In this document: piece by piece, positions 3,017-63,899 of the stretch | Position numbering within the stretch: the first letter of the stretch is position 1 | Layout: every line of letters begins with the position of its first letter | Source: a virus | DNA: 64,000 nucleotides | IMG/VR virus record: IMGVR_UViG_3300045974_000399 | Location: 1-64,000 of that record | Strand: one strand, 5' to 3' | The notes under the pieces: model-generated | What the model saw: the letters and a program-made list of their open reading frames with translations, nothing else | Database searches by the model: none | Told to the model about the DNA's origin: nothing | Made by a program: the position numbers and the translations under genes

Positions 3017-3415
3017 ATGAAGACACCTGCAGAAAAGTTAACGCATAACCTGGAAGCAGCCGTAAGACGTCTTAGCAAGGTACGTCCTCTCCCTGAACTT
3101 CCAGACCCAACCCCGGAAGAACAAGAGCGTATCCAGTTCGTTATGGCAACCCCAAATTTTGACCTCAGGGGTCGTTCTTACATGGCTGAGATAATTCGTA
3201 GAACACCGCTGTGTACTGGGTATATGCTATTTCTCAACCAAAGATGTAGCCTTGCCTACATTATGCACCGGGATGACGTTGACGATATGGACTTCATGGG
3301 CGCAGTACCTCCGGCAGAGCGCTTCCCTATTCCCAGATACTTGTGGGAAAGGCACCCTGAGTACATTCGGCGCTGGGTATTCAAGAAGATGTGCCAGCGT
3401 TCAAACAGACTGTAG
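3017..3415 (+). CDS. 132-aa hypothetical protein
   Basis: AAAGGAG precedes the ATG. The protein is charged with a Pro-rich N-terminal third (PLPELPDPTPEEQER) and an Arg-rich C-terminus. No family is recognised. The 42-nt gap after it contains TATAATTTAAGGAG (3439-3452), in which a TATAAT hexamer sits against the next gene's ribosome binding site, so the gap may hold a promoter. Confidence 0.6.
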   Translation: MKTPAEKLTHNLEAAVRRLSKVRPLPELPDPTPEEQERIQFVMATPNFDLRGRSYMAEIIRRTPLCTGYMLFLNQRCSLAYIMHRDDVDDMDFMGAVPPAERFPIPRYLWERHPEYIRRWVFKKMCQRSNRL

Positions 3416-3457
3416 ATATTAAAGATCCATTATTTCTATAATTTAAGGAGATACAAT

Positions 3458-4051
3458 ATGCAATACGGAATAAGAGGCTTAATGCCCACAACAATAAGCT
3501 GGAATGCGTCTTCTGAAGGGGACGATATAACCAGGTTAAATGGAGATGTAGGCGAGTTTCGGCTGTTCAAAATTCTGCCCACCACTTCTCTTAACCATCC
3601 GGTTGAACTGATTGGTCTTGGGGCCCGCAGGAAGTGCAACAATATAGAGGAAGCCCAGGACTTGGCCAAGGAAAGGCTTAGACAACTCTTTTCTAGGCTA
3701 CTCGAAGAAACTATATCGGACACGCTTTCGGCTGAACTCGCGGAGTCACCTGGTCTTCTGGATAGCTTTTTGGCTATAGCCTATTACGTGCGATCCAATG
3801 AGGGCCGCGTGGATATGCGGGTAGCAAATGGGCTGAAGAATGCCTATCGGGGAGTCTTGCCACAGTCATATACTGTTCATGATCTTGTAACTACCAAAGA
3901 CCTGATACTGCTTAAGATGGAGAACTTCGGCAGACATTCCTTGCAAGCAATGCGGGCCACGATAACTGAATACTTGGAGTATCGAAAGACTAACCCGATG
4001 CCTGAGTATATAAAAAAGGGGATAGAGGGATGGCAAAGCAAGGCATACTAA
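3458..4051 (+). CDS. phage protein with RNA polymerase alpha-CTD-like DNA-binding domain
   Basis: The 197-aa product has an unfamiliar N-terminal part (1-110) and a C-terminal region (about 117-175) that follows the bacterial RNA polymerase alpha C-terminal domain closely. RVANGLKN (121-128) aligns with the VRSANCLKN helix that carries Arg265, Asn268 and Lys271 in E. coli alpha. TVHDLV (139-144) matches the TIGDLV segment. NFGRHSL (156-162) matches the N-L/F-G-K-K-S-L helix start that contacts the DNA minor groove, with Lys298 replaced by His. The alpha N-terminal assembly domain is absent. By inference the protein binds UP-element-like DNA or the contact surfaces used by alpha-CTD partners, and so modifies host or phage transcription. 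The overlap of 22 nt with the next, zinc-ribbon-like gene suggests the two are translated together. Confidence 0.75.
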   Translation: MQYGIRGLMPTTISWNASSEGDDITRLNGDVGEFRLFKILPTTSLNHPVELIGLGARRKCNNIEEAQDLAKERLRQLFSRLLEETISDTLSAELAESPGLLDSFLAIAYYVRSNEGRVDMRVANGLKNAYRGVLPQSYTVHDLVTTKDLILLKMENFGRHSLQAMRATITEYLEYRKTNPMPEYIKKGIEGWQSKAY

Positions 4052-4251
4052 CCGCTAAGGGCGATCCGATGGAAACCATGAACCTGGAGAAGCTAACTAA
4101 AAAGGTACGCTGCACACAGTGCCGAGAAAAGAAGATAGATGGAACTGAAGTAAACGTAGTTCGCGGTATGGATGAAAAGAAAAAGGTACGGGCTTACCTC
4201 TGTACGACGGAGCCCTGCATAACAAAATACTTCGCAAGTCAGTCAGAGTAA
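4030..4251 (+). CDS. 73-aa putative zinc-ribbon protein
   Basis: The gene starts inside the end of the alpha-CTD-like gene. Four cysteines form a C-x2-C (CTQC, residues 28-31) and a C-x4-C (CTTEPC, about 58-63) pair about 27 residues apart, as in small zinc ribbons. The rest is Lys-rich. A DNA- or RNA polymerase-binding role would fit its neighbour but is inference. A strong hairpin terminator follows directly. Confidence 0.6.
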   Translation: MAKQGILTAKGDPMETMNLEKLTKKVRCTQCREKKIDGTEVNVVRGMDEKKKVRAYLCTTEPCITKYFASQSE

Positions 4252-4259
4252 AGTAGTAT

Positions 4260-4291
4260 GGGCGGGTCTCTGCATTTAGTTAGACCCGCCC
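4260..4291 (+). terminator. Rho-independent terminator
   Basis: Perfect 10-bp stem GGGCGGGTCT (4260-4269) / AGACCCGCCC (4282-4291), 12-nt loop, followed by TTCTTCATTTT. It closes the transcription unit that ends with the zinc-ribbon gene. Confidence 0.85.
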
Positions 4292-4333: not shown

Positions 4334-4792
4334 ATGGGTAATGTTCAAGTAACGCCTGATCCTGATACTTATGGGATGGTAGTTAATTTATCAACAGGTG
4401 AGATGAATAAGGTAATTTATGTTTCTAATATGATGGAGTTCCACCGAAAGCTAATGACCCGAGGTATAATTCTCACCGAAACGCATAAGGTGTTACAGCG
4501 TATATTACAGCAGGTCAGGGTTAAAGCGCTTTACCTGATAAACGTCAGAACAAATGCCATTGAAAAGCACATAGATGCCTTGCCGTTATTCTTGCCGTTG
4601 AAGGGTAAGATAGACTACTTGTATGATATGGGACGCTGTGAGACACGTCTTCAAACCGCGCTTACTCTGATGTCTGAAGAGATGGAGTGTGGGGTGGTAC
4701 TAACTACACCTAGTCCTATCTACACAGACAATCAGGAAGAAGCTATTAGAGAACGTTACCGATTGGTTTGGGACAAGCAAGACGTAACCTAA
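4334..4792 (+). CDS. 152-aa hypothetical protein
   Basis: First gene after the terminator, with GAGGTAAAAACG upstream of the ATG. The protein is soluble and predicted helical in the middle (residues 35-75). No motif or family is recognised. It is followed by a 23-nt gap to the next gene. Confidence 0.65.
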   Translation: MGNVQVTPDPDTYGMVVNLSTGEMNKVIYVSNMMEFHRKLMTRGIILTETHKVLQRILQQVRVKALYLINVRTNAIEKHIDALPLFLPLKGKIDYLYDMGRCETRLQTALTLMSEEMECGVVLTTPSPIYTDNQEEAIRERYRLVWDKQDVT

Positions 4793-4815
4793 AAACTGTA
4801 AATAAGGAGATGAAA

Positions 4816-5157
4816 ATGATTGTAATAGCAAAACTTGTATCCTCAGAATTTGTAGTTGGTGTTCTTACAGAAACAGGCTCAGTAATAACCGCCTTCATGA
4901 TTAAGCTGAAACAGATTGAAGGTGCTCCTGCGGGTGATATGCGCCCTGTAATCATGTCGTATCTAGCTCCCTTTGCACCTGCAACTCAAAGTGTAGAAGA
5001 GTTCACTCGAGACAAGGTAATGTCTACAATACCTGCACCGAAAGAACTAGTAGACGCGTACATTAAGCACACTGCAATAGGAACTAATATCATCGTGAAC
5101 ACTCCACAGATAATTATTCCAACAGCTTCTCCTTCTGCAGGAAAAGAACGTTGGTAA
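4816..5157 (+). CDS. 113-aa conserved phage protein, function unknown
   Basis: AAGGAG (4804-4809) lies 6 nt before this ATG, while an alternative ATG at 4810 touches the site, so 4816 is chosen. The N-terminus ([17 protein letters not shown]) has the alternating pattern of a small beta-barrel. The middle contains MSYLAPFAP and the end is Pro/Ser/Lys-rich. I recall similar short proteins beginning MIVIAKL in other large phages, without known function. Confidence 0.65.
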
Positions 5158-5233
5158 CGTATTGGGCCGTGTATCGGCCTCGTTCTTAGGAGCGAATTCC
5201 ACACACGTAGTAAGAAAGAGAAGGAGTAGTAAC

Positions 5234-5437
5234 ATGGCACAGGGAACGGTAAAATGGTTCAACGCGGCAAAAGGATTCGGCTTCATCACACAGGAAGATG
5301 GCGAAGCAGATGTGTTCTGTCATTTTTCTGCAATCCAGAGTGACGGATTCAAAAGTCTGGATGAAGGGGATAACGTCACCTTCGATATCACCACAGGAGC
5401 CAAGGGTCTGCAAGCCACAAATGTCCGCCGCGTCTAA
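5234..5437 (+). CDS. csp: cold-shock domain protein (CspA family)
   Basis: The 67-aa product is a single cold-shock domain of typical length. It begins [17 protein letters not shown], with RNP1 KGFGFI and an RNP2 that reads VFCHFSAI, where Cys replaces the usual Val. These five-stranded OB-fold proteins bind single-stranded RNA or DNA and melt secondary structure. The ATG at 5234 is fixed by AAGGAG at 5221-5226, and an upstream in-frame start is rejected. A 76-nt leader precedes it and a strong terminator follows, so it is probably its own unit. In a phage it most plausibly aids translation or transcription antitermination of phage messages. Confidence 0.95.
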
Positions 5438-10755: not shown

Positions 10756-13191
10756 CTAAATGGAAATACCTTTTTTGGCGAGTATTTTCTTGAACTGTTC
10801 AACGCCAATAACTGATACCCCAGATTTTCTAGCTTTGTCTAGCTTACCCCCGGATTCACTTGGGTCTTTAGCTATGAGGTATGTAGTCTGTGCTGACACA
10901 GACCCACTAACAATTCCACCATTATCCTCAATAACCTTTTCCAAGGTCTTATCCCTGAATCCTGTGAAAACAATCCGTGCATCCTGCAAACCTGTTCCCG
11001 CAGCTCTTTCAGGTTTCTTACCGAGCTTTATAACCTTTGCGTTGGCTTTAAGGAACGTGTTGAACTGCTTTATTCCATCCCCAAACTGAATAGAGAAGTT
11101 CTTGAAACCAGGGATTTGAGATACCTCTTCTTTAACCTCACGCTTTGTTTTACCTGTCCAGCGTGAAAACATCTCATCCCCGTACACTCGGTACAGGGCT
11201 TTCATTCTACGTGTTCCGAAGTTACGCCCAAAATAGGGCAACGCCGCAGCCAGGATGTAAATAGGTATACCGTCCAAACCTTTACGAATATTCTCAAATA
11301 TGTTTTCTGCTGACTTCTGCTGGAAACCTTCGATGCCTTTTATGTTACTGATAGACATATTTAGAACTTTGTCCACGGTATCATAGCCCGCATGATAAAA
11401 CTTGTCTACCACGCCTGGACCAATGTCATCGACTCCAATGGACTTGAAGAAAAAGAGTATCTGCTTTATCTTGACTGCAGAATGCTCTGACTCTGAACCG
11501 CTGGTAACAACCAGGTCAACATAGGTTTCATTCCAGTCGTAGTCGCCAAAGCCTTCCTTGTCTGGCATCTGTGCTCGTGCTGCTTTCGTCACCACCTTAA
11601 GAATATGCGGGATTACATCTCCAGCGCGAGTTATCAAAACTTTGGCGCCAGGCCCTACCTTGTTGTCCAGAATGAACTTAGCGTTAAAGGCAGTGGCCTT
11701 ATTGACCCTTACCCCGCCTAGACGTGTAGGCACTATCCAGACTCTGGGTTTGATGAAACCATCTTTGCTCAAGCGCCACTCAACATGGTCAACTATGGCC
11801 TCGACTTGTTCGGTATCTCCAGTCTTAAAAGCGCGAGCGTATCTGGGTTTAAGTTCCTCTGTTTCATTCCCTAACTTCTTACGAATCAGTGCGGAGTTAA
11901 CCTCAACCACCGCGCCATCCATCTCATAGTCAGCTTTCTTTCGGCGCGCGTTGACGTACTCAACCAGCATTCCTTCATTTAGATCTTTGGCTGGAACCAC
12001 CGCGTAGGGTACGATAGAGAAGCCCCACTTCTTCAGGGTCTTAAGCTGCGTTTCTTTATCCATTGTGGATTCTTCAGACATAATGCAGTACGCAGTAACT
12101 GTCATTTTGGGAAGAACGCGCAGATCCGCAGCATTACGATTAAACATACCTCCAGCCATATTGCGTGCTGTGGTATAGGGTTCTTTCGTTCTTTCGTTCT
12201 TGAAAACTACCTTTTTCAGGGCCTCAAACGCAGAATTCCCCAGCATACCTTCTGCCCTAACCGATACATCCTTGGTGGTCTCGGGTATCTTCTTTGGTAC
12301 CCCTGGGATGCTTTGAACATGTCTTAACACGTCTTGACCCACTAAGCCATCCCCACGAGTAGTGGCGGCAGTCAAGGCACCTGTACCTTTTTTGTATTTG
12401 AGCTGTAAACTTATTCCATCAAGCTTATCCGAAAGTACGTACTTGGAGTCCTTTGCTTTGGCCACCCACGCACCTACGCTCTTATTATCTGGCTTTGTCT
12501 TGCGAAGGCTACCCATCGGGTATTCAAGCGTAACGCGCTTTTCACTCTTGGCTACAGGCGCTCCAACCTTCTCCAGAAGCTTAGCCTGCTTAGGGTCTCT
12601 CCTGATTATTATTTCTTTCAGAGCATCATACTGGTTATCTGTCAGCGTAGACTCTTTAGTTTTCACATTATGGTAGTTTCTGTTTGCTGTGGTCGCAGTA
12701 GACATGAGCAATTCAATCGGCAGCTCTTCGCCTGATAGGTAGCGCCCTGCAGCACAAACCAACGTAGGATTCCTGGTTATGGCATACAAAGGAAGAACCT
12801 TATTCAGGTCCTCCTGCGTGAAAGACGCTAGGGTCTTTAATAGGGTCTTGAACACAATTTTTTGGTTGGGTAAAGCTTTGGTTATAATCCGTATCGTTCC
12901 TAGAGGCTTCTTGTTCAGAAGTTTACGAAGGAATATATCAGCAGGGTCTACCTTGGTTAGTCTAGCCGAAAACATACCTTCTGTTTGATACAGAATAAGG
13001 CACTCTCCGGCTTCGTTTATATTCACGGCCAGCGGGGTAAAGAATACCTGTGTTTTTTCCAGGGTGGACTTATACCTGGAGCCCACAAGTATCTCAGTCT
13101 TCCTAACCATAACTTTTGCGGTCTGAAATGTTTTGAGGGCCTTGGTAATGTCCCGCGTAAACAACAAATCCTTTAGGGCTATCTTGGACAC
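10756..13191 (-). CDS. ligA: divergent NAD+-dependent DNA ligase (LigA-like) with N-terminal extension
   Basis: The 811-aa product is longer than typical LigA (about 670). Residues 1-165 are an extension unlike any ligase domain I know. An Ia-like segment (STLTDNQYDAL, 181-191) is followed by the adenylation domain with the active-site motif K-L-D-G at 256-259, then YPMGSL, TRGDG and RAEG. An OB-fold, a helix-hairpin-helix region (IKGIEGFQQKSAENI) and a C-terminal BRCT domain (about 730-811, RIVFTGFRDKTLEKVI) follow. The four Cys of the LigA zinc finger are absent from the segment between OB fold and HhH. By family it seals 5'-phosphate nicks with NAD+. It sits unusually at the end of the late structural arm. 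Confidence 0.9.
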   Translation of the reverse strand: MSKIALKDLLFTRDITKALKTFQTAKVMVRKTEILVGSRYKSTLEKTQVFFTPLAVNINEAGECLILYQTEGMFSARLTKVDPADIFLRKLLNKKPLGTIRIITKALPNQKIVFKTLLKTLASFTQEDLNKVLPLYAITRNPTLVCAAGRYLSGEELPIELLMSTATTANRNYHNVKTKESTLTDNQYDALKEIIIRRDPKQAKLLEKVGAPVAKSEKRVTLEYPMGSLRKTKPDNKSVGAWVAKAKDSKYVLSDKLDGISLQLKYKKGTGALTAATTRGDGLVGQDVLRHVQSIPGVPKKIPETTKDVSVRAEGMLGNSAFEALKKVVFKNERTKEPYTTARNMAGGMFNRNAADLRVLPKMTVTAYCIMSEESTMDKETQLKTLKKWGFSIVPYAVVPAKDLNEGMLVEYVNARRKKADYEMDGAVVEVNSALIRKKLGNETEELKPRYARAFKTGDTEQVEAIVDHVEWRLSKDGFIKPRVWIVPTRLGGVRVNKATAFNAKFILDNKVGPGAKVLITRAGDVIPHILKVVTKAARAQMPDKEGFGDYDWNETYVDLVVTSGSESEHSAVKIKQILFFFKSIGVDDIGPGVVDKFYHAGYDTVDKVLNMSISNIKGIEGFQQKSAENIFENIRKGLDGIPIYILAAALPYFGRNFGTRRMKALYRVYGDEMFSRWTGKTKREVKEEVSQIPGFKNFSIQFGDGIKQFNTFLKANAKVIKLGKKPERAAGTGLQDARIVFTGFRDKTLEKVIEDNGGIVSGSVSAQTTYLIAKDPSESGGKLDKARKSGVSVIGVEQFKKILAKKGISI

Positions 13192-13656: not shown

Positions 13657-15174
13657 TTATTCCCAGGAATTTACTTCTATTTCAACTATATGAGCTACCG
13701 CTGTTTGATTCCGTATCATTAAGCTATCGAATGACGCCGACCCAACCGCATTACGTTTACCTGCTACTAGATAAGCGATTATCTCATCTGCCATAAAGCT
13801 AGCTTGATAAACGAATGTAGTTGGACTACTGACATTCCAGAGATACAGATTTAATCGGTCAAGAGGAACCTGAATTAAGGCCAGCGAATAATTTTGACCG
13901 GGGCCTATTTCATACTGAGCACTTATTATCCTTCTCCATGATTTGCCATTAAGAAGCAACGCATTTGAGCCATACCCAGGTTCACCTTGAAATCCTTGGT
14001 GACCTTGAGGGCCCTGTGTCCCAGCGCGGTCTACCTTAACTATGGTTGTGAGTATAGCAGAAGGACTTTCACCTATTACTGTTGTAGGATTTTCAACACG
14101 AGCAGCATAGTAAGTACGTCCCACTTGCAGTCGATAGTTCTTGTTTAGATCCTGGATATCCACCATAAACTCTGCTATCGTCGGCTGACAATCTACATCG
14201 CTTTCACTAGAACCAAACCCTGCGCTAACGCCTAGGGTGCGTGTTCCATCATGTAAGCGCAATGCCGACCAGCCGTTTTGACCTAAGAGTTTAAGGCTAG
14301 TAGATACGTTATAAACCCCAACCTCTGTAAAGTTAAGAATAGGCCCGCTAAAGAGTATGCCATTGGTGGGTCCTGACTTAGACCAGATTATGTCTGTCCA
14401 CATGTTTGCCGGAAACGTCAGCATATCTGCGAAGAGCTGAGTGTAGATCAAAAGCGTGGTTCCGCCTTGAGTACCCTGAAGCCCGCGAAAGCCTTGCGCT
14501 CCGTCTACACCCTGCACCCCTTGAACACCTTGATAGCCGCGTACACCTTGTGAACCCTGATGACCTTGTGAACCTTGGACACCGCGAAAGCCTTGTGCTC
14601 CATCTCCTCCAGATTCTCCAGTTGAACCCTGTGGACCCTGTGAACCCTCCGACCCCTGTGGGCCCTGAACTCCAGTATCGCCCTGGGTTCCAACGGGTCC
14701 TTGATGACCTTGAACACCTTGTGCTCCGGTATCACCTTGCGAGCCTTGCCCTCCACTTGTTCCAGATAACCCCTGTGAACCCTGATGACCTTGTACGCCG
14801 TCAATACCAGAAAATCCTTGTGGGCCTTGATATCCTTGTGGGCCTTGTGGGCCCCTTTCACCTTGAAAGCCGTCCTCTCCTGCTTTACCTTGTGGTCCAC
14901 TAGAACCTTGTGCTCCAGAAAAACCCTGTGAACCTTGCGGGCCCCTAAATCCTTGTACGCCTTGCCGACCCTGATAGCCTTGCGGGCCCTGGGGACCTGT
15001 TGTTGGGCCGCCTGGATTAAGGTCGATAATTGTAATCATTCCCTCACTACGAGCACGCCAAATGTCAACGGTTATAACTTCAGTTTGTATCGCCTCTCCT
15101 GGGTATAGGGTTTCTCCATCCAAAAAAGATATGCCGCCCGTTCCAGCTAAAGCAGTTGCAGTAATTTTATACAT
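13657..15174 (-). CDS. collagen-like tail fibre protein
   Basis: The order in the 505-aa product is as follows. An N-terminal module of about 50 residues (MYKITATALAGTGGISF) is shared with the fibre gene at 52325-53743 and is probably the virion-attachment part. About 180 residues of Gly-X-Gln collagen-like triplets (GPQGPQGYQG type) follow from residue 60. Next is a C1q/TNF-like beta-sandwich (about 242-390), one more short collagen stretch, and a final beta-domain. Collagen triplets form trimeric rods, and C-terminal beta-sandwiches trimerise and bind ligands. By inference it is a host-recognition or decoration fibre. The start has only a weak GGGGCC site. Confidence 0.85.
   Translation of the reverse strand: MYKITATALAGTGGISFLDGETLYPGEAIQTEVITVDIWRARSEGMITIIDLNPGGPTTGPQGPQGYQGRQGVQGFRGPQGSQGFSGAQGSSGPQGKAGEDGFQGERGPQGPQGYQGPQGFSGIDGVQGHQGSQGLSGTSGGQGSQGDTGAQGVQGHQGPVGTQGDTGVQGPQGSEGSQGPQGSTGESGGDGAQGFRGVQGSQGHQGSQGVRGYQGVQGVQGVDGAQGFRGLQGTQGGTTLLIYTQLFADMLTFPANMWTDIIWSKSGPTNGILFSGPILNFTEVGVYNVSTSLKLLGQNGWSALRLHDGTRTLGVSAGFGSSESDVDCQPTIAEFMVDIQDLNKNYRLQVGRTYYAARVENPTTVIGESPSAILTTIVKVDRAGTQGPQGHQGFQGEPGYGSNALLLNGKSWRRIISAQYEIGPGQNYSLALIQVPLDRLNLYLWNVSSPTTFVYQASFMADEIIAYLVAGKRNAVGSASFDSLMIRNQTAVAHIVEIEVNSWE
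14463..14997 (-). repeat. collagen-like tandem repeat tract
   Basis: The coding DNA is a run of imperfect 9-nt units encoding Gly-X-Gln triplets (G-P-Q, G-S-Q, G-V-Q, G-H-Q). Gln rather than Pro dominates the third position. Codons vary between copies, so the repeat is kept at protein level, though it remains a likely site of length change by recombination. Confidence 0.85.
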
Positions 15175-16328: not shown

Positions 16329-17573
16329 CTATAAGCAAAGAGAGTCCATAGGTATCGGATAATTGAATCGGATATACATGGCGTAAGGCGCTAACAATCG
16401 GGTTAGTGGGCACACGTAAGTGTTGTACTTAAGGTTAGCCCAACACATGCCCCCGCATATCCAACGCGCTCCACAGTTATCTGTGCAAGGGGGACTAACT
16501 CGTTTGTCCAATAGCTCTGCCTGAAACAGCTTGGAGTCAAAGTCGTCTATGGTACAGAAATTAGCATCACTATCAGGCAAGGATGCGTATTCGTGACACA
16601 AAAATATCTTGCCAGAGTGACTTATGGATAACGAACTACTACACGATTCATAGTTAACTCCGTATGCCTCCAGCATATTCATTTTGGAAAGATAACGTCG
16701 AAAGATCGAGGCATTTATTGGTAATGTACCCGCTTCAATTTCCAATAATTCCTTTTCAATATCTTCCACAGGTATTTCTACGTTACTCTTTCCGCAGGTT
16801 GCGCCATTGGTATCAATCAGATTATATACAACTGGAACTATGCCTTCAAATTCCTTAGATTGACTCGCTCTAACTTCTGGCAATTCAGCCAGTCTGTCAA
16901 TTGGATACACCACCGAAACATTTAGCAAATGGTTAAATTCTGGGTACTTATCGACCAGGGTCTGTATTATCTCCCGAGTTTTATCTGTATTAGAATGACC
17001 TTCAAAATTACTTATGCAGAAGTCAAGGTTGACATACAAAAGAGTTTTAGTTGCTATAACCCACTCAACGAAGTCATCTGTTAATAGCGAACCATTTGTA
17101 AGTATAGTAACTCGGTTGAAATAGCTGGCAACTTCTTTAACCAGCTCAGGGTACAAAAGAGGCTCGCCCCCAGAGATGCAGACCTGCTTGAAGCTATTAT
17201 CAGGTAATATGCTTCGGAGCTTCTTTATCCAAGCGATATCGAACACGCTCTTTTTATCGGATCCGTTTTTACACGCATAGCAGAAACTACAATCCATATT
17301 GCACTCATTGGTTATGATGCAAAATCCTACTGCAGGGTCATGTGATAACTGTTCTCTCTGCCGCTGACAGTACAATTCACTTAATTCGGCTGTGTCATCT
17401 CGAGTTACATCTAAACCGTATTTTTCCAAAACATCTGCATCAGACAGCAGAGTTATCCTTTCCGCCTGAGCTCCCAAGACTACACTGAACTTATTGGTAC
17501 GAGGAGTGTATATCATAGTGTTGGCGTATTTATTCAGGCGTATGCCCACGTTAGTTTGATAATCAAAATCCAC
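16329..17573 (-). CDS. radical SAM/SPASM enzyme, candidate fibre-tip maturase B
   Basis: The radical SAM cluster is C-x3-C-x2-C at Cys91, 95 and 98 (CNMDCSFC), followed by ISGGEPLL (GGEP at 135-138) and ILTNGSLL. From about residue 311 there is a Cys-rich SPASM region (GKIFLCHEY, then CTDNCGARWICGGMCW and YVCP) that would bind one or two auxiliary 4Fe-4S clusters. SPASM enzymes modify peptides, forming thioethers, C-C bonds or formylglycine, which makes a nucleotide-modifying role unlikely. The N-terminal 85 residues could be a substrate-recognition domain. The GTG start has AGGAGG upstream and overlaps the previous gene. It is the last gene before a strong terminator. Confidence 0.88.
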   Translation of the reverse strand: MDFDYQTNVGIRLNKYANTMIYTPRTNKFSVVLGAQAERITLLSDADVLEKYGLDVTRDDTAELSELYCQRQREQLSHDPAVGFCIITNECNMDCSFCYACKNGSDKKSVFDIAWIKKLRSILPDNSFKQVCISGGEPLLYPELVKEVASYFNRVTILTNGSLLTDDFVEWVIATKTLLYVNLDFCISNFEGHSNTDKTREIIQTLVDKYPEFNHLLNVSVVYPIDRLAELPEVRASQSKEFEGIVPVVYNLIDTNGATCGKSNVEIPVEDIEKELLEIEAGTLPINASIFRRYLSKMNMLEAYGVNYESCSSSLSISHSGKIFLCHEYASLPDSDANFCTIDDFDSKLFQAELLDKRVSPPCTDNCGARWICGGMCWANLKYNTYVCPLTRLLAPYAMYIRFNYPIPMDSLCL

Positions 17574-18816
17574 TTAAAGCCTCCTGTTTAGTTTTATCCT
17601 TCATGGATAACCAAAGATTATATGCCATCAGAGTGACATGTAGTGAACACGCGTCTTCTGAGGCATCAGATACAAAATGACAACGGGCAGTACAGGAATA
17701 TATTAGAGGGCATGTCCGACATTTAAGGGGAAGAGCAGCACACTTAGGCGTTAGTATGTGATCTTCACAATTGGTACCTTGAGATGCACACTCAGAACAG
17801 GATGTTACTTCCATCAACTGCCGAGTATGCTGCTGAGGGTTATCTGAGGTTTGCTCCAAACCAGCATACAAGCAATGCGTATACTTATAGTCTCCAACCA
17901 AAACCAACCTGTTTATATTGCAATTCAAGGTGGGCCGGCTTGGGTTATTTCTTAAGTAGTTTAGGCCTCTGATGTCTGCTGATTTGAAGTTTTGTGCGGC
18001 AGATTGCTCAGGGACGCTATCAACTAAGTCCTGTATAAATCGGTTCATGTTCATATTGTACGGAGGATTAATCTTGTGGTCGGATACCTTGGAGATAACT
18101 ATGTCGGTATTCTTTAGCTTACGGAGCCTCTCAAAGATGTGTAGAATTTCACCTGATCTACCTGGTAAGACGTTCAACACAAAGACAAGATTATCATTAG
18201 GAATGGGGTCAAAATAGTCGTATGACAATCTACTGAATTCTTGGTCAAAGTTATCTACATTTAGTGACCTGAGGATCAGGATCTTTGTAGGTAGTATTCG
18301 GATAAAACCCATCAAGTCATCATCCAAGTTAAGGCCATTAGTGAATAGTGTAATGCTATCAAAAGAGTGATACACACCCAACAATAGATTCTTTAATGCC
18401 CCCTTGTCAATAGTAGGCTCACCCCCAAAGATATGTAAGTCTCGTATACTAGGATATAGCTCTTTATGCTTTAAGATGTGAGTAACGGACGCAAAGTCAG
18501 CTACGGGTCTATTCCTACTCAGACAATACTCGCAGCTTAGATTGCACTCTGAGTTTGATACTACCAACGTAGTGTACTTTATTTCCTTTCGGTCTAGAGT
18601 ATTGGCATAAAAGATTTGTCTCTGCTTAGGCGTTACCTCTTTTAGGTACACGCTACAAAACTGAACGTCTTCTATGCCCTCGCTGGATATTGAGATCAAA
18701 GGACTTACTTCAGCAAAGTTATCAAAAAGTATGTGACCATCTTTGACTTTTATTATGAACCCAGAAGTAACATCAGACAGAGCAATTAAGTTGTTTTTGG
18801 TTATTGCAGGAATCAT
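17563..18816 (-). CDS. radical SAM enzyme with Cys-rich C-terminus, candidate fibre-tip maturase A
   Basis: The cluster motif CNLSCEYC again places Cys at 91, 95 and 98, followed by FGGEP (GGEP at 131-134) and LFTNGLNL. The last 130 residues hold about a dozen Cys in SPASM-like order (CNINRLVLVGDYKYTHC, CSECASQGTNC, CRTCPLIYSCTARC, and a final C). The matching position of the motifs in the two adjacent enzymes suggests duplication followed by strong divergence. The ATG overlaps the upstream stop (ATGA) with no clear ribosome binding site, so translation is probably coupled. The substrate is inferred to be the Cys-Thr tail of the fibre two genes upstream. Confidence 0.87.
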   Translation of the reverse strand: MIPAITKNNLIALSDVTSGFIIKVKDGHILFDNFAEVSPLISISSEGIEDVQFCSVYLKEVTPKQRQIFYANTLDRKEIKYTTLVVSNSECNLSCEYCLSRNRPVADFASVTHILKHKELYPSIRDLHIFGGEPTIDKGALKNLLLGVYHSFDSITLFTNGLNLDDDLMGFIRILPTKILILRSLNVDNFDQEFSRLSYDYFDPIPNDNLVFVLNVLPGRSGEILHIFERLRKLKNTDIVISKVSDHKINPPYNMNMNRFIQDLVDSVPEQSAAQNFKSADIRGLNYLRNNPSRPTLNCNINRLVLVGDYKYTHCLYAGLEQTSDNPQQHTRQLMEVTSCSECASQGTNCEDHILTPKCAALPLKCRTCPLIYSCTARCHFVSDASEDACSLHVTLMAYNLWLSMKDKTKQEALSGF

Positions 18817-58210: not shown

Positions 58211-58843
58211 TTAAAAGTCGATATTCTGTTGCTTAACTATATCACGGGTCCTGAAGTTATACGCTATGAGCTGACCCATACCCTTCTTATCCCGCGTTAT
58301 GCCTCCATCCAGTACTACCTTTGTCCTCTTTCGGGCTTGACTCTTTATTACACTCTGCTTAGTTGGAGTGTGACCCTCCAATATAGTAGTATGAGTATCC
58401 ACGTTAACTATATCCAGATCACCATGATGAAGCACATACTTCTTTGTAGTAACAACTGAAGGCATCTCACGCAGAAGCTTTATATACTTTCGAGGTATCT
58501 GCTTAACTTCACTAGCTCCAAAGCTTTGAAGAGTCTCTGGATACTTTTTCTCAAACTCAACCCGATGCACAGGCATTGTCCAAGCATCAAGAAGTTTCTG
58601 GTCATTGTTCCCGCGAATGAATACTACTTCTTGGCCTCTGTCCCGCAATGCTATCAGGATATCCAAAACGCCTTTAGAATCAGGGCCCTTGTTGATATAG
58701 TCCCCAAGAAAGTACAGTTTATCAATAGCCCTAAGCTTTATCTTGGATAACAGCTTTAGAAGTGTCTTGGGACATCCATGCGTGTCACCTATCGCCCATT
58801 TATTTCTAGTTTCAATACTTGCCAACGCTCTGATAACTTTCAC
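58211..58843 (-). CDS. calcineurin-like metallophosphatase
   Basis: The 210-aa product has GDTHG (residues 19-23), GDYINKGPDS (47-56), RGNND (77-81), HHGD (139-142) and GHTP (157-160). These are the dimetal centre motifs of PPP-type phosphoesterases such as the lambda phage serine/threonine phosphatase. The third motif is GNND where most PPP phosphatases have GNH[DE], so the acid His is replaced by Asn, and the substrate may differ (nucleotide phosphoesterases also show variants here). GTG start with AAGGAGG; one nucleotide is shared with the gene upstream. Confidence 0.88.
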   Translation of the reverse strand: MKVIRALASIETRNKWAIGDTHGCPKTLLKLLSKIKLRAIDKLYFLGDYINKGPDSKGVLDILIALRDRGQEVVFIRGNNDQKLLDAWTMPVHRVEFEKKYPETLQSFGASEVKQIPRKYIKLLREMPSVVTTKKYVLHHGDLDIVNVDTHTTILEGHTPTKQSVIKSQARKRTKVVLDGGITRDKKGMGQLIAYNFRTRDIVKQQNIDF

Positions 58844-59406
58844 TATGTCCTCCTTGCCATTCCCTCTGGTCTGGATACGTTAAGACCCTTAGAGTCTCTG
58901 TCGTAGCGTTCCTTAGGGAAGGTCTTGAATATATCCGAGATGTCTTCGCACTCAATCTTACTAAATAGCATTTCATCGGTAGTACGAGAGTTCTTTGATG
59001 GCCGTAAAAGTAAATGCACAGGAATAAGCACGTTATCCCCGAATACATCCTGAATGGCTTTACAACGAGTACGGCCTTCATGCCCACCTGTCTGCCAAAA
59101 CTTATCCGCTATAACCCAATGCAGGGTTAAGAATGGATTACCCATCGGTGTACCCTCCTCAATACATCTTTTCATGAAGTTTGAGTTAGGGTACTCAGTT
59201 CTAACTTTAGCCAGAAACAGAAACTCTTTGGGCTTCATATAGCAGGTTACACCTTCATACTCTATATTCTCATTGAATGGCGTCTGACCCACTCCATAAC
59301 GAGCATTAAACAGTTGATCCATGCAGGGCATACCAGCTATGTACTTATTATCCCCTACTCGGGGCTTGAAGGAGTTGGAAAGTATTCTATATCGGGTCAC
59401 ACGCAT
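58843..59406 (-). CDS. ParB/Srx-like protein next to the terminase
   Basis: AAGGAG lies 6 nt before the ATG at 59406. That ATG shares its A with the TGA of the terminase C-half, which implies coupled translation. The core is WVIADKFWQTGGHEGRTRCKAIQDVFGDNVLIPVHLLLR, where 'GG..GRTR..A.....G...IPV...' follows the ParB nuclease/sulfiredoxin-like pattern. Such proteins often sit beside phage terminases. Function not known; ParB-like folds bind nucleotides or DNA. Confidence 0.6.
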   Translation of the reverse strand: MRVTRYRILSNSFKPRVGDNKYIAGMPCMDQLFNARYGVGQTPFNENIEYEGVTCYMKPKEFLFLAKVRTEYPNSNFMKRCIEEGTPMGNPFLTLHWVIADKFWQTGGHEGRTRCKAIQDVFGDNVLIPVHLLLRPSKNSRTTDEMLFSKIECEDISDIFKTFPKERYDRDSKGLNVSRPEGMARRT

Positions 59407-60926
59407 CAGCATCTCCTTCGTATCGTCCCCATTGCCTTACCGTCAGATGCTAACTGAGAACCTACACTTGCGCCTTTACTACTCCCCATCTTTGTTGTAA
59501 CTGAACCCAGCGCGCCACCCCCTGATGATACTGCGTCAGGACCATTAAACAGGTCTTGATTCTCATCTGCCAGAAGTCTAGTCATAGCCAAGCAATATGC
59601 ACGGAACATATCATCATTAAGATTTTCGCCTTTCAGCACCTTAGACCCAGAGTCCTGAACGGTAATACATTGAAGAACAAAGTGGGCGACAGGGGCCTTA
59701 GAGAAGCAATTAGGATAACTGGCGTGGTCATACTCCATTATCTCATCTTTTTCCCACTCAGGCCGCGGTAAAGATACTTCCTTGTCTTCTAGATAGGCTT
59801 TGGCAATGCCCATTTCAGAATACGATACTGAGTACTGATGAGCATCTATCTCATGGGCTGCTGCGATATCCTGCAACAGCTTTATAGATTGCCACCTGTC
59901 AGCACAAACCATCTGTATGTTCCGGCTCTCTATCAAGGGCACGATGAGCTTGGCATACACAAGAGAGTGGTTAACTGGAACTCCAGGCAAAGGCTGTACT
60001 TCAAGAAGCAAATCAATAACTGGCTGACCGGTATCCCTGTCGATATGCGCTATGCAGCAACCAAAAGCGTTGTTTGAAAACCCTGCATCCAAAGCCAGTA
60101 TGGAAGGACGCTTGGCTCTTCGTATCTTTCCAGGGATAGCAAATCGCGTTATATCCTTTGACTTCTTATTCGTGCGCTGTCTAAAGGATATCTCTGTGGC
60201 ATTCCGATAGTTCTTAGAGCACTCCAGAACAGTCATTATATTTCGGATGAACGGGTTATTCGTCAAAGGTGGATTTGCCCCGTAGTCGCGTTCCGCTTCA
60301 ACAGGGTCCTTTGTATACTCAGCAGCCAAATCTTCCCGGGTTATGTTTGGATTCATCTCCCAGGTTGGTCGGTGAAACGCCAGTATTGTATTCGTCAACT
60401 TGGCCTGCTTTACCAAGCTCATTATCTTATCACGAGCATGCGAAGGAGAACTGACGTTTGTGAAGTATGCAGTTAGGATGTTGTCGTAGCCATTTCGTAT
60501 CAGCTTATTCGCTGCTGCTCTAACAGTAAGAAGCGAACGCTCAAGCGCGATATACACCTCGCCCGCGTCATCCTTTATCTTCTTCTTCAAAGCGTCGTTA
60601 TTGAACCACCCGATCTCATCTATAGCCCCAAAGAATCTGGTTCTACCGCGTAGAGTTTTCTTGTTTGGACCCGAGGCGTACATCAGGAGTTTTCTGTGGC
60701 GATATAGGATGAACGTATCCTTAAACCGATATAGCTCTTCACCGTACCGCTCTGAGTACTCATCCAGCATTTCATGATAAGCACAATTATGAACATTTAC
60801 CCCATTCGCAAAATAGTTATGATGATTCTCAACCTCTATATCGTAAACTGGTTTTAACCCCACAGAACGTATTGAAGTAACCGTTGCTAACTTTATTCTT
60901 TTACCGTCAATTTCAATCTCACGCAT
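59406..60926 (-). CDS. large terminase C-half preceded by the IntC part of a split intein
   Basis: Residues 1-47 are the C-terminal split-intein fragment, ending VYDIEVENHHNYFANGVNVHN with blocks F and G and the penultimate His and final Asn. The extein follows with Cys at 60783-60785. The 459-residue C-extein carries the Walker B-like FFGAIDEIG and the RNase H-like nuclease: SILALDAGFS, MVCADRWQS and a NDDMFRAY end. The ATG at 60926 (AAGGA upstream) overlaps the endonuclease stop by 8 nt; an in-frame start at 60953 is rejected. Spliced to the N-half it gives a terminase of about 696 residues that cuts and packages DNA. Confidence 0.93.
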   Translation of the reverse strand: MREIEIDGKRIKLATVTSIRSVGLKPVYDIEVENHHNYFANGVNVHNCAYHEMLDEYSERYGEELYRFKDTFILYRHRKLLMYASGPNKKTLRGRTRFFGAIDEIGWFNNDALKKKIKDDAGEVYIALERSLLTVRAAANKLIRNGYDNILTAYFTNVSSPSHARDKIMSLVKQAKLTNTILAFHRPTWEMNPNITREDLAAEYTKDPVEAERDYGANPPLTNNPFIRNIMTVLECSKNYRNATEISFRQRTNKKSKDITRFAIPGKIRRAKRPSILALDAGFSNNAFGCCIAHIDRDTGQPVIDLLLEVQPLPGVPVNHSLVYAKLIVPLIESRNIQMVCADRWQSIKLLQDIAAAHEIDAHQYSVSYSEMGIAKAYLEDKEVSLPRPEWEKDEIMEYDHASYPNCFSKAPVAHFVLQCITVQDSGSKVLKGENLNDDMFRAYCLAMTRLLADENQDLFNGPDAVSSGGGALGSVTTKMGSSKGASVGSQLASDGKAMGTIRRRC

Positions 60927-61848
60927 ATGATTTTTCCTTGACGAGGGAGCCATTACGCCGCATTACTAGGATTTTAAATTCAAATCCAGCTTCTAGGCAG
61001 GCTTTACGTTTTCTTGTATTCACCTTTTTCTTTTGTCGCTGCGTAAAGGTACTCTTTACTTCAACGATAAGATTTAAATGTGGAATATAAATATCAGGAT
61101 GGTATACGTGTTTCTTTCTCTCAAAGGTATAGGGTATACTAGGAATACCTTTGCAGCCAATACCACACCTTATTTGAGAAGGCGATATACCTGAGGCCAG
61201 TAGATAATCCAAAGCTTGTGGCTCATAACCTTGAATCAAAACAATTTTTCTACCCAACTTGTACTCTTTGTGATTATACGAAGTAATTAGATTCTTATCA
61301 AATAGTTCTTTATTCTGAAGTGCATGCTCAGCTCCATAGCGTTTTAACATCGTGCTTTTAATCTTTTCTCTTACCTCAGGTCTCTGTGCAGAATGTGCTA
61401 CCCCGTACTTTTTTATACTCTTCTTTTTAGCACGTAACTTAGAACAATCTGGTTCAGGACAACCTGCTATTCGTAAGTTAGAAAATATTGGTTTCCATAT
61501 ATGCCCACAACGTAGACATTCTGCAGTTACTCTTTTGTTCATCCTAAGCAATAGCTTTTTGGTAATAACCCTTATTTTTTGTTTACTAAGATTTTTCAGC
61601 ATTCTTTCAGTTGAAAAGCTAGAGCTATTCTTTGCCCTCTCAAGCTGGTCCTTTTGACGTTGACAGACACAGCGATATTTACGAAAATAGTAAAGGTGTC
61701 GTTCTCGAGTATCCCCGCATTCCCTACATTTAGCCTTTAAGATGCTAGAGGTTACACGCTCTAGTATTTCGTAGGTAGATACCTTGAGTATCTGCTGGAC
61801 CTCAAGAAATGTTCTTTCAGTTTTTTCCTTGCGTGTTTCTGTAGGCAT
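60919..61848 (-). CDS. free-standing homing endonuclease between split intein halves
   Basis: The 309-aa product lies exactly between the terminase halves. It has two Cys clusters (Cys41/44/60/62 and Cys111/114/130/135) that look like zinc modules. Paired helical DNA-binding repeats follow: KKYGVAHSAQRPEVREKIK, then RYGAEHALQN, at 145-180. A C-terminal PD-(D/E)XK nuclease has YHPDIYIPHLNLIVEVKS with Asp252, Glu263 and Lys265. It fits the endonucleases of 'fractured' split-intein genes, whose reported family uses Vsr-like EDxHD residues; I see PD-(D/E)XK but not the full EDxHD set. It would cut intein-less terminase alleles and drive copying of the locus. The ATG at 61848 has GGAG upstream. 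Confidence 0.85.
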   Translation of the reverse strand: MPTETRKEKTERTFLEVQQILKVSTYEILERVTSSILKAKCRECGDTRERHLYYFRKYRCVCQRQKDQLERAKNSSSFSTERMLKNLSKQKIRVITKKLLLRMNKRVTAECLRCGHIWKPIFSNLRIAGCPEPDCSKLRAKKKSIKKYGVAHSAQRPEVREKIKSTMLKRYGAEHALQNKELFDKNLITSYNHKEYKLGRKIVLIQGYEPQALDYLLASGISPSQIRCGIGCKGIPSIPYTFERKKHVYHPDIYIPHLNLIVEVKSTFTQRQKKKVNTRKRKACLEAGFEFKILVMRRNGSLVKEKSYA

Positions 61849-61856
61849 GCTGTCTC

Positions 61857-61906
61857 CTAGACAATCTTTGATATACCTCAAATTACGATAATCAAAGATT
61901 GTCTAG
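61857..61906 (-). repeat. 16-bp inverted repeat around the endonuclease promoter
   Basis: Arms CTAGACAATCTTTGAT (61857-61872) and ATCAAAGATTGTCTAG (61891-61906), perfect, with an 18-nt loop holding the late element at 61874-61888. One arm abuts the ribosome binding site of the endonuclease, so it could regulate that gene, act as an operator or insulate it. Confidence 0.75.
61874..61888 (-). promoter_or_regulatory. candidate late promoter of the homing endonuclease
   Basis: On the - strand TCGTAATTTGAGGTA, lying inside the loop of the 16-bp inverted repeat and 26 nt before the endonuclease ATG. It would allow the mobile gene to be transcribed on its own. Confidence 0.6.
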
Positions 61907-61925
61907 CATTGCGTGATAAACCAGC

Positions 61926-62912
61926 CTATTCTACTACAACTTCATCACCTTCACGCAGTTCAGATACTTTCTTCCAAACTAGCCGGTTGTTCTCAAAGAC
62001 ACGTACCTGATGTTTATCTGTAGCAGGAAGCTGTTGATTTGTGTCTAGAGAGATTTCAAAGCATTCCTTCACACCATTATTGAATAGCTGTACCGCCTTT
62101 TCGGGCCCCTCAAGTGTCCGAAGTAAATCACCTGGGCAGATGTCTTCGATCAACTTCTTTGAGCCATCAGCTAAGGTAATCTCTGTACCTTTGGCGATAC
62201 AGAACCAAGGCGACTCAGCTAGATATTCATAGAAAGGGTCCCACAGTGTTTCCTTTGCTTGTGCGTAAGTCAAAGCAACGAAAGTACCATGAAGTATTGT
62301 CCCTGCATTTAATCCTAACAGTTGGATAGGATTCTGCAGCTTAAGAAACCTGTGGACAATGTACGCAGCAATCATGGCAATCATATGCGACTTGGCACTA
62401 CGTTGCCCTGCTAGTCCAGCTAGCTCTTGATAGGGTTTAAGCTCCCCGTTGTTTATCATGTCAGAGCGCTTAGCCCCGCACTTAGGGCACTTACCATACA
62501 CAAGCAGCGTTACTTTTTTCTTGAACAGCTTAAGAGAGGCGTCAACAGGAACGTTCTCAAACCACACTAAGTCAGTACAGTGTGGACAATACTCCTGAAA
62601 TAATTTTGTGGGTATCTCATTCTGACGAGCAAATCCCTTAACCTTAAGGAACTCTGCCCCGTTCAAGAATGTTACAAAGTTTGGAGCAGTAGGAAGATGT
62701 GAATCATTTATTTTTACGTCCAGCGGCACGCCCAAATCGGACTTAAGTATCGACTTAATCAGGCGATACATGTTGAACTTTACATCTGGAGCCGATACTT
62801 CGGGTAACCGTGAACTGGTTGATGTCTGGTTAGGGTCTGTGTTTACATCTAGAAATAAATCTACTCTCTTTATTGGTACAGGTTTTACTGATTTCAGTTT
62901 TTTGCGCTTCAT
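61926..62912 (-). CDS. large terminase N-half followed by the IntN part of a split intein
   Basis: Residues 1-237 are the N-extein, with a zinc finger (Cys109/112 and Cys142/145) and a Walker A-like LAGQRSAKSH at 168-176. This deviates from GxxxxGK[ST] in the first Gly and the Ala before Lys. From Cys238 to the stop, 91 residues form the N-terminal split-intein fragment: block A CIAKGTEITLADGSKKLIED, then PGDLLRT, and block B T-x-x-H in ATDKHQV. The stop falls right after DEVVVE. The product must pair with the C-half from 59406-60926, splice out both intein parts and join WF to CAYHE. Confidence 0.93.
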   Translation of the reverse strand: MKRKKLKSVKPVPIKRVDLFLDVNTDPNQTSTSSRLPEVSAPDVKFNMYRLIKSILKSDLGVPLDVKINDSHLPTAPNFVTFLNGAEFLKVKGFARQNEIPTKLFQEYCPHCTDLVWFENVPVDASLKLFKKKVTLLVYGKCPKCGAKRSDMINNGELKPYQELAGLAGQRSAKSHMIAMIAAYIVHRFLKLQNPIQLLGLNAGTILHGTFVALTYAQAKETLWDPFYEYLAESPWFCIAKGTEITLADGSKKLIEDICPGDLLRTLEGPEKAVQLFNNGVKECFEISLDTNQQLPATDKHQVRVFENNRLVWKKVSELREGDEVVVE

Positions 62913-63392: not shown

Positions 63393-63899
63393 TTAGGATT
63401 CATCTAGTGGTTCAGAGGTCTCACTGGTTAGGGTTAATTTTCTATCCAGGAATATTTTGTTCAATATCTCCAAGAAATACTCCTTTTCACCTTGACTGCT
63501 CCAGCTGTTTACTACGCATAAAGTAAGATGTGGCTTATACTCTTCATAGTCAAAGGTGAACCCGTATTTCTTACGCAAAGCTGACTGGCGTTTATCCAAA
63601 CTAGGGCAGGATAGCAGAGCTACCAGTATATCTCCCTCTGAAGTCTCTGCCCAATTCTCAACCCCAGTTATGTACGCAGTGTGCATTAGAGTTGGATCAG
63701 CAGAAAACGCATCATTATCGGTTCGCGAGTATATCTCAGTAACATGCAAGCTATCTGGATCTCTAACAGTGCAGTTAATCTGGAGCTTAACTCTGTCTAT
63801 CAAACAGCAGATTGTGTTAGCGGCACTCAGTAGAGGTTTTACTGAAACATATACTCCACCGGGCGCTGCTTTGGCTAAAGTAATAGTCAGTACTCTCAT
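63393..63899 (-). CDS. 2H phosphoesterase, candidate anti-CBASS protein Acb1
   Basis: The 168-aa product has two HxT motifs, LHVTEIYSR with His52 and Thr54, and YKPHLTL with His124 and Thr126. The second is preceded by GFTFDYEE, and the protein ends in LTSETSEPLDES. This layout, with a central Trp (ENWAE, Trp83), strongly resembles T4 Acb1 (gp57B), whose 2H fold degrades cyclic nucleotides of the CBASS defence. Other 2H enzymes (LigT, 2'-5' RNA ligase-like) are the alternative. Length fits Acb1. The start has AAAGGA upstream and a terminator precedes the gene. Confidence 0.75.
   Translation of the reverse strand: MRVLTITLAKAAPGGVYVSVKPLLSAANTICCLIDRVKLQINCTVRDPDSLHVTEIYSRTDNDAFSADPTLMHTAYITGVENWAETSEGDILVALLSCPSLDKRQSALRKKYGFTFDYEEYKPHLTLCVVNSWSSQGEKEYFLEILNKIFLDRKLTLTSETSEPLDES

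Follow-up and report, generated by a model that had tools for sequence, protein, structure and literature searches.

A divergent RNA polymerase alpha-CTD-like domain, joined to an N-terminal region without detectable relatives, in a protein of a probable jumbo phage

The 197-residue protein encoded at 3458-4051 (+) is a divergent example of the detached RNA polymerase alpha-CTD-like domains that are already known from phages. The window in which it lies comprises 64,000 nucleotides, bases 1-64000 of the 81,907-base IMG/VR virus record IMGVR_UViG_3300045974_000399, and the open reading frame (ORF) sits exactly where the original prediction had placed it. A ribosome-binding site, AAGGAG (3445-3450, +), can be read directly 7 nt 5′ of the ATG. 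The protein consists of an uncharacterised N-terminal region (residues 1-110; 3458-3787, +) and a C-terminal alpha-CTD-like domain, the core of which spans residues 120-172 (3815-3973, +) according to profile, alignment and model. Judged by sequence comparison, this C-terminal domain is related to the RNA polymerase alpha-CTD beyond chance and beyond what is seen for other HhH domains. Upstream of the gene, a sigma-70-like match at 3413-3442 was considered as a promoter and rejected, as the region has no excess relative to shuffled sequence and the -10 element of the match lies directly against the ribosome-binding site.

The search with PF03118 (RNA_pol_A_CTD) suggested with the original prediction returned this family as the best Pfam match (residues 121-167, E = 0.0021, 18.2 bits; 19.2 bits for the C-terminal half alone), but the score lies under the curated (gathering) cut-off of 23.8 bits. 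NCBIfam matches were to RpoA models only, and no better match to another HhH family emerged, as neither HHH_5 nor any similar family scored for the whole protein or for its C-terminal half. Because PF03118 gives 16.1 bits for the HhH of another protein of this phage as well, the NAD-dependent DNA ligase, whose identity was confirmed by Pfam, it constitutes weak evidence by itself, and a discriminating profile was therefore built from 25 IMG/VR alpha-CTD-like domains, four annotated phage proteins and two RpoA sequences, with the 197-residue protein excluded; the seeds were drawn from 39 IMG/VR loci with translated ORFs. The protein scored 29.9 bits against this profile, compared with 12.5 bits as the highest score among 20,000 composition-preserving shuffles, 6.5 bits for the ligase HhH, and 7.0 and 14.7 bits for other jumbo-phage ORFs matched by PF03118. 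The PF03118 matches in the Pfam-confirmed ligase, in Lu11 and in G002 look like HhH cross-matches and were discarded. As a positive control, the profile of alignment A4 detected all five phage records known to hold alpha-CTD-like domains, and its matches among PDB sequences were almost exclusively RNA polymerase alpha chains.

HhH domains are generic DNA binders, and the protein could conceivably assist replication, repair or recombination as a general DNA-binding HhH accessory and have no role in transcription. The plus-strand block downstream, which encodes a cold-shock protein, thymidylate kinase and ThyX, would suit such a role through its nucleotide-metabolism genes and cold-shock protein, and so would the weak match of PF03118 to the phage's own ligase. 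We nevertheless regard this explanation as rather unlikely, given that the profile clearly separates the domain from the ligase HhH and that no other HhH family was matched.

Structure prediction, also put forward at the outset as a check, brought the domain closest to alpha-CTDs, albeit with weak E-values. The alignment-based AlphaFold2 model (A4) of the C-terminal 102 residues is helical with a pLDDT of 75, while a single-sequence model reached a pLDDT of 38 and was set aside. The best PDB match of the alignment-based model is 1lb2_B, an E. coli alpha-CTD chain solved together with CAP and DNA (probability 0.90, weak Foldseek E 0.56); seven of the first eight structure matches are RNA polymerase alpha chains or RNA polymerase complexes, and the alpha-CTD chains 7vpd_S and 9dvt_A agree with the model to 2.1-2.3 Å over 54 columns. 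The Foldseek E-values exceed 0.1, which is to be expected of a helical domain this small, and the agreement in fold is partly circular because the input alignment was itself made of alpha-CTD relatives. As a prediction, the model supports compatibility with the alpha-CTD fold, short of proof. Neither the family searches nor the model brought the refuting result named with the original prediction.

That the domain occurs without an alpha-NTD, as had been proposed, is borne out by a profile match in the C-terminal part and by some 110 N-terminal residues that match no family. With only 197 residues in total and no family match in the region where RpoA carries its alpha-NTD, the protein is not an RpoA but a phage-encoded alpha-CTD-like domain joined to non-RpoA sequence. 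The single-sequence model of the N-terminal region predicts short strands followed by a long helix, at low confidence (pLDDT 38). This region has no detectable relatives and was not found in the compared sequences (the IMG/VR set, Goe8 and Mazun). Whether the query was the whole protein or either of its two parts, searches of IMG/VR, phages and GTDB genomes found no close relative; the phage matches all had E > 0.1, and the best of them was to a tail protein that is unrelated. Matches to tail-tube structures in the PDB (E 1.1) and to DUF1952 (E 0.22) were dismissed as noise.

The novelty implied by the original prediction could not be upheld, since alpha-CTD domains lacking the NTD are common in phages, among IMG/VR loci, annotated isolates and BFVD entries alike. 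One IMG/VR scan yielded 39 alpha-CTD-like loci, none of which carries an alpha-NTD in the inspected translations. BFVD holds entries with RNA polymerase alpha-type names, including one from Mycobacterium phage Mithril, and an alpha-CTD-type protein of an Erythrobacter phage has been named in the literature (PMC9127768). The protein named ‘RNA polymerase subunit alpha’ in Bacillus phage Goe8, Caulobacter phage CcrColossus gp133, Ruegeria phage V16 gp23, Microbacterium phage Mazun gp26, Morganella phage Mecenats66 ORF34 and the Mithril protein all possess an alpha-CTD-like domain that is joined to unrelated sequence and lacks an alpha-NTD, and all differ from the 197-residue protein in the joined region. 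The detached domains of the IMG/VR proteins L067-L105 share 15-29% identity with the domain described here and are joined, by inspection, to HTH/sigma-like regions, coiled coils and other sequences, with HTH/sigma-type regions recognised by eye in L077, L085, L087 and L093. In these four and in L065, the alpha-CTD-like domain follows an apparent HTH and a sigma-region-4-like segment, which suggests that this combination is a recurrent architecture in viral contigs. A survey of the literature, mostly outside subscription journals, found no paper on the function of the detached phage proteins.

The record most likely represents part of a jumbo myovirus genome from the PaBG/NCTB/Lu11 group: the major capsid protein shares 45% identity with its Pseudomonas phage PaBG counterpart, and the phage NCTB proteins match the terminase at 42% and the tail sheath at 31.5% identity. 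The 197-residue protein therefore probably adds a PaBG/NCTB-like jumbo phage lineage to the carriers of detached alpha-CTD-like domains. Iyer et al. assign PaBG, Lu11 and NCTB to subgroup 2.2 and make the case that phages of group 2 recruit host catalytic subunits (PMC7824862). Neither the protein nor the A4 profile found a match in PaBG, NCTB, Lu11, HRDY3, Afa-NA1 or phiXF1, or in the searched IMG/VR relatives, and the remaining PF03118 matches in related phage records are weak. As it was not found in these six related records, the gene looks like a sporadic accessory gene, and a diverged equivalent might lie below the detection limit.

The domain resembles the alpha-CTD of RpoA (approximately residues 250-329; PF03118; 1lb2, 1coo), which is likewise of the (HhH)2 type and the top fold match, in most of the residues that face DNA. 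Equivalences were read, in E. coli numbering, from alignment A4 and a position table. As originally predicted, RVANGLKN (residues 121-128) and NFGRHSL (156-162) fall on the corresponding alpha-CTD positions: R265 (R121), N268 (N124) and K271 (K127) are kept in the first motif (RVANGLK, residues 121-127; 3818-3838, +), and N294 (N156), G296 (G158) and S299 (S161) in the second (NFGRHSLQA, residues 156-164; 3923-3949, +), where K298 has become His (H160). Three further changes had gone unremarked, namely C269 to Gly, E302 to Ala (A164) and E261 to Arg, so that six of the nine DNA-face residues considered are kept and C269, K298 and E302 are altered. Besides these four substitutions, the missing alpha-NTD and the sub-cut-off PF03118 score, the protein departs from RpoA in the loop after the first helix, which is about six residues longer than in E. 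coli alpha; loop insertions also occur in the IMG/VR proteins L079, L085 and L090. Equivalents of R265 and G296 are present in 34/34 viral relatives, of N294 in 32/34 and of S299 in 31/34, as are K298 (33/34) and E302 (30/34), both of which are altered here; conservation in the viral set is inflated, as its 39 loci were found via short peptide words including VRALNCLK and IPNFGRKS, whereas the 197-residue protein was chosen independently of that selection.

One could take C269G, K298H and E302A, together with the sporadic occurrence of the gene and an N-terminal region without relatives, as signs that DNA binding has been lost, leaving a module for protein interaction or an accessory gene in decay. 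Because six DNA-face residues are kept although overall identity is low, and the ORF is intact behind a good ribosome-binding site, we hold this to be quite improbable.

In the E. coli alpha-CTD, the group of residues around 265 contacts DNA, residue 261 contacts sigma-70 region 4 and residues 285-288 contact CRP. The sigma-70 (E261) and CRP (287 region) contact surfaces are altered in the 197-residue protein, whereas its DNA face is largely retained, a pattern which, at the level of sequence, favours DNA binding over full mimicry. This bears on the proposal made in the original prediction that a free alpha-CTD mimic acts as a decoy, filling UP elements or activator surfaces and thereby depriving host RNA polymerase of alpha-CTD-dependent transcription. 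The retained DNA-face residues, among them the Arg265 equivalent, are in keeping with such a decoy, and phages do target that contact: Alt and ModA of T4 ADP-ribosylate alpha Arg265, and the ModA-modified polymerase is unable to use UP elements or CRP (PMC2988021). However, competition for activators is not to be expected, because the sigma (E261 to Arg) and CRP (287 region) surfaces are not conserved. A decoy would also require high abundance, and the gene was not found in the related phages searched; on balance we consider a decoy unlikely.

The reading that we prefer, and to which we would give about an even chance, is that the protein may be an accessory DNA-binding regulator that acts on A/T-rich DNA and alters the use of particular promoters by host RNA polymerase. 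We infer DNA binding, a preference for A/T, an effect on transcription and a role for the N-terminal region as follows. The C-terminal part of this two-part protein, an alpha-CTD-like (HhH)2 DNA-binding domain, would sit in the minor groove where DNA is A/T-rich (UP-element-like); the orphan N-terminal region would supply dimerisation or contact with a partner, and the outcome would be a changed use of particular phage or host promoters by host RNA polymerase. The view that the PaBG/Lu11/NCTB group uses host RNA polymerase speaks for an accessory regulator (PMC7824862); the sub-cut-off PF03118 score, C269G/K298H/E302A, Foldseek E-values above 0.1 and the lack of a close relative count against it. 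A bolder version, which we think very unlikely, is that the protein provides host RNA polymerase with an extra, detachable alpha-CTD, a trans-acting reader of UP elements at selected phage promoters. The N-terminal region or the neighbouring zinc-ribbon-like protein would then dock on the polymerase and the C-terminal domain would grip upstream A/T-rich DNA, which would differ from T4, whose strategy disables alpha Arg265. Phages attack the alpha-CTD, as T4 does in modifying Arg265, yet many encode detached alpha-CTD-like domains, and the 197-residue protein offers a simple test case with one conserved arginine (R121) and one class of DNA.

The overlapping zinc-ribbon-like protein named in the original prediction as a possible partner corresponds to a 73-residue ORF that does exist at 4030-4251 (+), but its zinc-ribbon character is weak and the overlap depends on the choice of ATG. 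It contains the Cys pairs CTQC and CTTEPC, and its match to Zn_ribbon_5 (E 0.0087) is below the cut-off; a TFIIS-like match (E 0.79) was not significant and was set aside. A start at 4030 gives a 22-nt overlap, whereas the internal ATG at 4069 lies 17 nt after the 197-residue ORF. A terminator-like hairpin, GGGCGGGTCT/AGACCCGCCC, followed by a U-rich tail, is predicted at 4260-4291 (+; -22.2 kcal/mol, z = -5.4), and is missed by a simple terminator scanner because its loop is longer than the scanner permits. Since the two ORFs are codirectional and the hairpin closes the pair, they are probably co-transcribed, and their co-expression is likely from the arrangement of the sequence; partnership does not follow from this, and a search for relatives of either ORF that show a conserved pairing found none. 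Just downstream of these genes lies the cold-shock protein (5234-5437, +; CSD E 1.8e-31).

Elsewhere in the record, approximately 15 neighbouring proteins on the minus strand (63395-63899 and G000:68871-81679, L011) share a short basic leader, judged by eye and with one regular expression. Examples are MRRVTLSSVETA, MRTLHISLAG, MRRVTVSIQETA, MRHLALAFAETK and MKIHRLTMEIS, among others, often with a Glu near residues 9-12. The leader resembles capsid-targeting sequences that a prohead protease removes and could mark a set of head-packaged proteins. A metallophosphatase-like protein at 58211-58843 (-), with GDTHG, GDYINKG and RGNNDQ motifs seen by eye, starts with MKVIRALASIETRN, which is similar to the common leader. 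By eye, the terminase large subunit (59406-62912, -) is apparently split by an intein-like insertion, within which the ORF at 60919-61881 may be a homing endonuclease. Two adjacent radical-SAM-like ORFs at 16329-18816 (-), with CxxxCxxC and C-terminal Cys-rich motifs recognised by eye, lie near a collagen-like protein (13657-15174) and tail genes. Also by eye, two features that are unusual in a phage were recognised in L011, at 4396-5397 and 11373-11765 (-): a CorA-like protein, which has a GMN motif and two hydrophobic C-terminal segments, and a response-regulator receiver-like domain that stands alone.
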